A stretch of DNA of 64,000 bases. Origin: Flavobacterium sp. (GTDB taxonomy: Bacteria; Bacteroidota; Bacteroidia; Flavobacteriales; Flavobacteriaceae). The notes beneath the pieces were generated by a model that saw only the letters and a program-made list of their open reading frames with translations, had not been told where the DNA came from and made no database searches. Shown one piece after another: positions 11,261 through 13,157 of this stretch. The translations under genes and the position numbers were made by a program. The DNA lies in contig NZ_PNNA01000028.1 in the NCBI RefSeq assembly GCF_013823965.1, positions 1 through 64,000 of the forward strand, given 5' to 3'. Every line of letters starts with the position of its first letter. Position 1 is the first letter of the stretch.

Positions 11261-11288
11261 AAAACCTCTAAAGAAAAGTAGAGGTTTT
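11261..11288 (+). terminator. Rho-independent terminator after hemerythrin gene
   Basis: AAAACCTCTA / TAGAGGTTTT stem followed by T-run. Confidence 0.8.
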
Positions 11289-11477
11289 TTTGTCGTGATA
11301 CTTAACTGTGGATAATGAAGGGATTTCGTGTACAGAACCATCGAGGATTTAGATGTTATTTTGGCTTTTGCCAAAAAAATAAAACAAAAAATAGTAACTG
11401 AAGCTGCCGTGTTGGGCGAAGCATTCGTTAGCTTTTGGAATAATTGTGTATCTTTGATTGAAACAATTTAATTTAAA

Positions 11478-12059
11478 ATGACGCTATTTCAGAACGCCAG
11501 CGAATGGATTGATGCCGCAAATGCACAAGATCCAAACCAAGAAATATACCAATCACAAACCTATCCAAAGGAACTTTTGTATTCGAATCGAATGTATGAA
11601 AGGTTGATGAATTTTCATCCCAATGCTTCCGAAGAAGTTCAGATAGCTACCAAGGCGCAACACATTTGCCGTTGGAAAATGCCGAGAGAATTGTATCCGA
11701 TGGATCGTGTGGGTTATTTAAAATGGCGTGAAGATTTGAAGAAATTTCACGCCAAAACTACCGGCGAAATCTTGGCCAAAGCCGGATATTCACAAGAATT
11801 TATCGACAGGGTTTCTTTCCTTATCGAAAAAAAATCACTCAAAAAAGACGAGGAAACCCAATTGCTGGAAGACGTGATTTGCCTCGTGTTCCTCGAATTT
11901 TACCTCGATCCATTCGTGCAAAAACACGACACGGAAAAACTCAAAAACATCATCCTGAAAACTTGGAACAAAATGTCCGATGCCGGACATCAAGAAGCCT
12001 TGAAAATAAACTATACCGCCGCAAATCTTCAGTTGATAAAGGATTCACTTGGGTTGTAA
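11478..12059 (+). CDS. DUF4202 domain-containing protein
   Basis: 'AQHICRWKMPRELYPMDRVGYLKWREDLKKFHA...LEDVICLVFLEFYLDPF' fits DUF4202; TATCTTTG promoter box at about 11449. Confidence 0.8.
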   Translation: MTLFQNASEWIDAANAQDPNQEIYQSQTYPKELLYSNRMYERLMNFHPNASEEVQIATKAQHICRWKMPRELYPMDRVGYLKWREDLKKFHAKTTGEILAKAGYSQEFIDRVSFLIEKKSLKKDEETQLLEDVICLVFLEFYLDPFVQKHDTEKLKNIILKTWNKMSDAGHQEALKINYTAANLQLIKDSLGL

Positions 12060-12071
12060 CACGGTTTCGTC

Positions 12072-12982
12072 ATGCAAAACAACAGCACAGCATCTGCCGA
12101 TATTTCGTTCAAGAATTTAAGGCGATGTACATTTTCGGCCTCTTGACCATTGCGATTAAGGTACTTTTGAGCCAGTTGTTGATCCAACACAATCTCCACA
12201 GCCAGTTGAGCGATTCGCGAATCATCAATATTTCGGGAAAGTAAAGAATGCTCAGCCAGAAGTTGACCAAGGAAATCTTGATTTTGAATTTCATTGCCGA
12301 TTCCACCAACAACGAAAAAGAGATTGACCAAGCAAACGAAATCATCAAACTTTGTACATTTAACCACAATGCTTTAGAAAAAGGAAATGACAGTCTTGGT
12401 TTTCCAAAAGAAAAAAGCAAGGAGCTTTCCGAACTGTTTGTAGCCATTAAACCTAATTTTGAACAGATTCTCAAAGCTGCGACAAGGTTTTTGGATAATA
12501 AAAAATTGAGGAGCCAACAGAATTTCGTAAAAATAGTGATGCTTTCCATGTACGAATCAGAAGAGTATGTCTTGAAATCCATCAGGGCGGGAGCCGACGG
12601 TTATTTGCTAAAAGATTCCAGCAAAGAGGAATTCTTGAAAGGGGTTTATGCCGTTTCCAAAGGAAGGAAATACTTTAGTGGCGATATTTCGTCGATATTA
12701 ATTAGACAAATCAGTAATCCTGTTGCAGCATTGGAATCCAAACAATCTTTGGAGCAGAATCCGATGATTACCAAAAGAGAAAAAGAAATCCTGAAATTGT
12801 TGCTTTCCGGAAAAGGAAACAAAGAAATTGCCGCATCCTTGGCTATCAGCAAAAGAACGGCAGGAGTCCATCGTTTTAATTTGATGAAAAAAATGAAAGT
12901 CAAAAATATAATGGAACTTTCCAATAAAGCGAATGAATTTTATTATTCTAATCTGTTTATTAAAAGTTCTTTAGCTGTCTGA
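12072..12982 (+). pseudogene. Decayed two-component system: PilJ/NIT-type sensor kinase N-terminus fused to C-terminal part of NarL/LuxR-type response regulator
   Basis: Frame from ATG 12072 (MQNNSTASADISFKNLRR) continues only after a 1-nt frameshift near 12124 (MYIFGLLTIAIKVLLSQLLIQHNLHSQLSDSRIINISGK); TAA at 12242-12244 where PilJ domains have Gln (GK*RMLSQKL); near 12520 the sequence switches to receiver-end plus HTH (KIVMLSMYESEEYVLKSIRAGADGYLLKD...TKREKEILKLLLSGKGNKEIA). Confidence 0.85.
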
Positions 12983-13157
12983 AACTACGTAGCAGAATAA
13001 TGTTTTAAGTATAAATACTTGATTGTTTTTGTAAAAAAATACAAGTATTATGTTTGGGTGGGAGTAAATTTAATCTGTCCAATCTGTATTTTCAAGGCTA
13101 TTTATGCGTAAATTAGCATTGGCTATTGCCGTAATTATTAACCAATTGTTTACTATT

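Follow-up and report, generated by a model that had tools for sequence, protein, structure and literature searches.

The segment at 12072–12982 of the window (the whole 64,000-nt stretch of Flavobacterium DNA analysed here) is, with a probability that we put at about 95%, a pseudogene derived from two adjacent genes, a NarX/NarQ-like sensor kinase and a NarL-like regulator, fused by a deletion as a nitrate cluster collapsed around a spared DUF4202 gene. It combines collinear homology in a syntenic position with disabling lesions and relaxed selection. Because the stretch aligns at 74–89% DNA identity to intact operons, the pattern of lesions in it and in its flanks, judged from these alignments, is far beyond chance. 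The remnants would yield no working sensor or regulator. The relic itself would be a case of ordinary gene decay after the loss of a metabolic capacity; a cluster caught half-decayed shows which of its genes serve nitrate use only and which do not. The features are listed in Table 1. The window lies in a 3.07 Mb draft assembly of 108 contigs, from which the lesions were read.

Table 1. Remnants, surviving gene and candidate regulatory elements of the nitrate cluster in the window.
Feature	Coordinates	Strand	Evidence
nirB fragment (about codons 118–160 of 835) with its own indels, joined to the nirD tail	11307..11414	+	blastn 84% over 126 nt to G154, 80% to G308; tblastn residues 125–161
Last 29 nt of nirD (3′ end), lacking 1 nt and continuous with the nirB fragment	11415..11443	+	blastn alignment to G154/G308/G010
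Predicted −7 box TATCTTTG (flavobacterial sigma-A consensus TAnnTTTG), between the nirD end and DUF4202 and close to both	11449..11456	+	sequence match
DUF4202 (PF13875), intact, 193 aa, predicted all-helical with an HD-like fold	11478..12059	+	Pfam E 4.5e-74, full length
Pseudogene 5′ part, about 142 N-terminal codons of a PilJ/N-box kinase	12072..12508	+	blastn/tblastn to intact 600–603 aa kinases; Pfam PilJ E 4.5e-13 (stop masked as X)
Junction of the deletion, AAAAATTG, a direct repeat of 8 nt	12501..12508	+	repeat at both deletion ends in G308 (sequence comparison)
Pseudogene 3′ part, regulator residues about 70–217 (receiver tail and LuxR HTH), native stop lost	12501..12982	+	tblastn 80%; Pfam on the ORF from 12248: GerE E 1.9e-18, receiver tail at profile positions 62–108 of 111
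Remnant of the 7-2-7 palindrome in the old narK promoter, TAAGTATAAATACTTG	13006..13021	+	equivalent sites at about −93 of narK in almost every intact operon
narK leader through the ATG start codon, narK absent	13023..13052	+	blastn to G154/G308 narK leader

The Intact Operon in Related Genomes

Comparison was made with 400 genomes of the same genus, one per species, of which 119 contain the kinase. The gene order nirB-nirD-DUF4202-sensor kinase-regulator-narK is intact in G010, G154, G308, and others, and DNA searches placed the operons of G154 and G308 nearest to the window; the kinase-regulator pairs next to DUF4202 that the initial annotation proposed to seek in related Flavobacterium are thus present. 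The operon encodes a kinase of 600–603 aa, a regulator of 219–220 aa, and a transporter for which NarK is the best family, with a score below the NarK cut-off. NirB and NirD of G154 exceed their NCBIfam cut-offs (TIGR02374, TIGR02378). In the same genome, a 252-aa ORF without a Pfam match (L086:5958-6716) sits between DUF4202 and the kinase, and a gene for an Rce1-like membrane protease (L086:9477-10301) sits between the regulator and narK.

The intact kinase of G154 carries PilJ, PAS, HisKA_3, and HATPase_c domains (Pfam), and HAMP gave no Pfam match in the intact orthologs. The intact orthologs share this architecture, the lack of a HAMP match included, and a G-x-x-R motif with nitrate/nitrite-sensing kinases described in Bacteroidetes, which are relatives of NarX and NarQ (PMC8199190), whereas the window copy retains only the N-terminal codons listed in Table 1, with a frameshift and a stop within the motif. 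The N-box of the orthologs, INISGKQRMLSQ or a near variant, can be set beside the published nitrate N-box consensus, [IVL]-[ND]-x-A-G-x-Q-R-M-L-[ST]-Q (PMC6381276), which it fits at all but one position, where Ser stands for Ala. The McpN protein of that study is a chemoreceptor, while the PilJ domain of Flavobacterium is part of a kinase, and the Gln position of the N-box is a stop in the window copy. Nitrate binding at the N-box is expected by analogy with McpN and with the Bacteroidetes kinases (PMC6381276, PMC8199190). The kinase of the relatives would accordingly sense nitrate through the N-box of a periplasmic PilJ-type domain and would phosphorylate the NarL-like regulator, which probably binds 7-2-7 palindromes before nirB, narK, and the nitrate reductase gene, sites whose association with the cluster is described below.

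The intact regulators consist of a receiver and a GerE domain (Pfam) and give good scores with the models for NarL, NarP, and their relatives, in every case below the equivalog cut-offs. They are like NarL in these two domains and in the 7-2-7 palindromes associated with them, but the flavobacterial heptamer differs (TA[C/A]GTAT) and the neighbouring genes are assimilatory rather than respiratory.

Lesions in the Kinase and Regulator Genes

The three lesions that the initial annotation had read from the sequence are all found again when the window is aligned with intact genes. The base reported missing near 12124 corresponds to a single-base deletion adjoining 12124–12126, relative to G154, G308, and G010. 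When the three frames are read in parallel, one gives MQNNSTASADISFKNLRR and then loses sense, and another resumes with MYIFGLLTIAIK, continues to INISGK, meets TAA at 12242–12244, and proceeds through RMLSQKL as a frame that is open to 12982. This stop, which had been taken to replace Gln, falls inside the nitrate N-box (INISGK-stop-RMLSQ), and Gln occupies the position in 34 of the 34 other aligned orthologs. The internal deletion, which measures 1,702 nt against G154 and 1,764 nt against G308, joins the sensor to the end of the receiver slightly to the left of position 12520, where it had first been placed. It removes kinase residues ~143–600 and regulator residues 1–69. The losses that had been claimed are therefore real: the HisKA_3 and HATPase_c core is gone (Pfam finds neither domain in the ORF), and the window regulator, unlike NarL, lacks the phospho-acceptor Asp57, a residue that is invariant in 33 orthologs.

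Alignment also disclosed damage beyond these claims, namely the loss of the native regulator stop, which adds 12 residues, nine changes at invariant sites, and remnants of nirB, nirD, and narK on the two sides. The LuxR HTH had been called intact; it is complete in length, but invariant positions are substituted, among them one in the recognition helix (E194G), so the term was too strong. PilJ occurs only once in the whole genome, in the relic.

Twelve nucleotides lie between the DUF4202 stop and position 12072, and the genes for Rrf2, ScdA_N/hemerythrin (Ric), and hemerythrin, which the initial annotation had noted as neighbours, are found upstream. It had also labelled the system "nitrate/NO-type." The nitrate part of this label agrees with the N-box and with the location of the homologs in a nirBD/narK cluster. 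The NO part, which was suggested by the upstream rrf2-ric-hemerythrin genes, was rejected, since the intact homologs carry the nitrate N-box and no intact locus examined had those genes alongside.

In a DNA search of the 400 genomes, the fusion stretch was continuous only in the window's own genome (G000); relatives that matched both halves did so in separate matches, which break at about the same point. A close relative with the same short ORF intact would have counted against a relic, and none was found among the genomes searched. An inherited fusion ORF shared between species was rejected on the same ground, as no other searched genome carries the fusion.

Decay of the Surrounding Cluster

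The joining of the nirB fragment to the nirD tail amounts to a deletion of ~2.5 kb relative to G154. On the other side, 13006–13052 preserves the promoter and the start codon of narK, beyond which homology stops. The initial annotation had proposed to look for a loss of nitrate and nitrite assimilation genes from the genome, and such a loss is confirmed for three of them. A narK query that does find the gene in the loci of relatives had no match in the window's genome. A complete nirB is likewise absent from it, the best match being of generic oxidoreductase level (1.2e-31), as is a complete assimilatory nitrate reductase gene (nasC), of which the oxidoreductase half alone is matched, in part and at ~30% identity. 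Of the assimilatory nitrite reductase NirBD and the NarK-type transporter, G154 has full NirB and NirD, whereas the window has only scraps.

In this lineage, the whole assimilatory cluster was lost through deletions, one within nirB-nirD, one from the kinase to the regulator across the 8-nt repeat, and one that took narK; point lesions have piled up in what remains. Upstream of these remnants, a hairpin resembling a terminator (CCTCTA...TAGAGG and then a run of T) was seen by eye at 11265–11297, after the hemerythrin gene, which it parts from the DUF4202 remnant cluster.

Selection on the Remnants and on DUF4202

Changes were apportioned by three-point counts from pairwise numbers, with G154 as the sister and G308 as the outgroup; these are simple counts with no branch model. 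The tree of DUF4202 pairs the window sequence with G154 as its sister (support 99/98), and named relatives that group inside this tree place the genome in Flavobacterium. Nonsynonymous changes in the kinase part numbered 18.75 on the window branch vs. 2.25 on the sister branch (binomial p = 2e-4), and those in the regulator part 29 vs. 8.5 (binomial p = 8e-4). For DUF4202, the counts were 8.0 and 7.5 (binomial p = 1.0), and the kinase and regulator together differ from DUF4202 with a Fisher p of 0.02. Invariant sites gave a similar result: 9 of 97 are changed in the window regulator, and none of the 33 orthologs has more than 3 changed, while none of 97 is changed in the window's DUF4202. By these counts, the kinase and regulator remnants are under relaxed selection and DUF4202 is not; the same substitution counts show that DUF4202 has stayed under purifying selection.

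If all changes on the branch had been neutral, the two parts together should hold 3–4 stops, and one is seen. Part of the branch would therefore predate inactivation, which probably happened part-way along it, unless some weak constraint persisted.

Other Explanations of the Fusion

Against the pseudogene reading stands the fact that the 244-codon ORF from 12248 is still open. Its product could be a working small DNA-binding protein, i.e., a receiver-less NarL-type output domain that acts independently of phosphorylation. The fusion is in frame and GerE scores well. In E. coli, the output domain of NarL on its own is able to occupy 7-2-7 sites and to act as a constitutive repressor (PMC4549865). 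However, such a protein would have to function with the nine invariant-site changes, one of them the E194G substitution in its recognition helix, and with both of its halves under relaxed selection, in a genome that lacks any exact copy of the operator palindrome and from which its former target genes nirB and narK are gone; the fusion is, moreover, unique to this genome. We consider a working protein very improbable.

The fragmented state of the assembly raises a different explanation, that the operon is in fact intact and that errors of sequencing or assembly produced the lesions. Errors would have to account not only for the fusion but also for the two further deletions in the flanks, for an excess of amino-acid changes that is spread along the regulator half, and for the genome-wide absence of narK and of a complete nirB. 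Since errors would not create all of these lesions together, we give this explanation hardly any credence, and a pseudogene formed by deletion remains the reading that we adopt.

A Palindrome Associated With Nitrate Genes

In intact operons, narK is preceded by a 16-bp palindrome of 7-2-7 layout at about −93, and nirB by one at about −47. When up to two mismatches are allowed, the palindrome is seen in 30 of 31 narK upstream regions (0.21 expected) and in all 8 nirB upstream regions (0.07 expected). All 43 of the sampled genomes that have nirB contain the exact form, TAMGTATWWATACKTA, as do 5 of the 42 that lack nirB (Fisher p = 5e-19, a value that overstates independence because the genomes are related). 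The three nearest intact genomes have 3–5 exact copies each, almost all of which fall within the nitrate cluster or close to it (within it for all three sites of G010), and the window's genome has none. G016 has six exact copies, yet neither nirB nor DUF4202 was found in that genome.

This co-occurrence suggests that the flavobacterial palindrome is bound by the NarL-like regulator. An assignment from co-occurrence alone was set aside, as the gene for a Crp-like regulator, a neighbour of the nitrate reductase gene, co-occurs too and might read TAMGTATWWATACKTA in its place. A close homolog of this gene (L061:8007-8705) is found in all 10 nirB-bearing genomes tested, and in G010 the gene adjoins a palindrome site. 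Nevertheless, the 7-2-7 layout and the outer TAC...GTA of the palindrome fit a site used to test E. coli NarL, TACCCCTAAAGGGGTA (PMC4549865), and, as a weaker point, four more distant loci that have both the regulator and the sites (L016–L018, L020) show no Crp homolog within the 12 kb examined. Recognition by the Crp-like protein is possible, if rather unlikely, and the NarL-like regulator is the candidate that we retain. The literature searched held nothing relevant on nitrate regulation in Flavobacterium or on NarL sites in Bacteroidetes. Comparison of the genomes supplies a candidate operator of nitrate regulation in this genus that can be put to the test.

DUF4202 as the Survivor of the Cluster

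Among the genes of the decayed nitrate cluster, DUF4202 stands out as the survivor and is a good lead for further study. The sequence TAnnTTTG, which is the sigma-A −7 consensus of flavobacteria (PMC9723704), occurs 28–34 nt upstream of DUF4202 in 39 of the 41 regions inspected, the window's included, both with and without the nitrate cluster. Such a predicted −7 box of its own (TATCTTTG in the window) would account for the continued expression of DUF4202.

Matches to DUF4202 were found in 143 of the 400 genomes and a complete nirB in ~118, and 23 genomes, the window's among them, have an intact-looking DUF4202 without a complete nirB. Cluster remnants adjoin an intact DUF4202 in G387, G072, G125, G157, and G395 (loci L088, L089, L096, L098, and L108). 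When presence or absence of the full cluster is placed on the DUF4202 tree, at least 8 changes fall on well supported branches and 13 are found in the best tree, some of which are possibly regains. Substitution counts give no sign of general relaxation in solitary DUF4202 copies, with those of G387 and G114 exceeding their sisters in changes. The gene is broken in two genomes, G002 (L064) and G285 (L103), and is therefore dispensable in some genomes.

The AlphaFold model of DUF4202 has a pLDDT of 94. Its best PDB match in Foldseek is to HD hydrolases of the YpgQ type (YpgQ is an HD-superfamily nucleotide pyrophosphatase), with a probability of 1.00 and a TM-score of ~0.5–0.6. The match is weak, with E-values of 0.045 or worse and 13% identity, and points at most to a likeness of fold, not to a canonical H...HD...D motif. 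A sequence search with DUF4202 against solved structures gave no match, and no paper in the literature searched mentions DUF4202.

Retention under purifying selection in the middle of the cluster, together with a −7 box of its own, suggests that the role of DUF4202 is probably not limited to nitrate assimilation. On balance, judging from sequence and from the structural model, we lean towards the view that DUF4202 is an independently transcribed HD-fold protein with a role beyond nitrate assimilation, one that is repeatedly spared as the cluster around it decays. In seven loci (L013, L014, L015, L026, L104, L106, and L107, including those of F. tructae and F. collinsii), the gene after DUF4202 encodes an intact regulator, and neither kinase nor nirB is present. 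A porin-like gene comes next in several of the loci that have DUF4202 and a kinase-less regulator.
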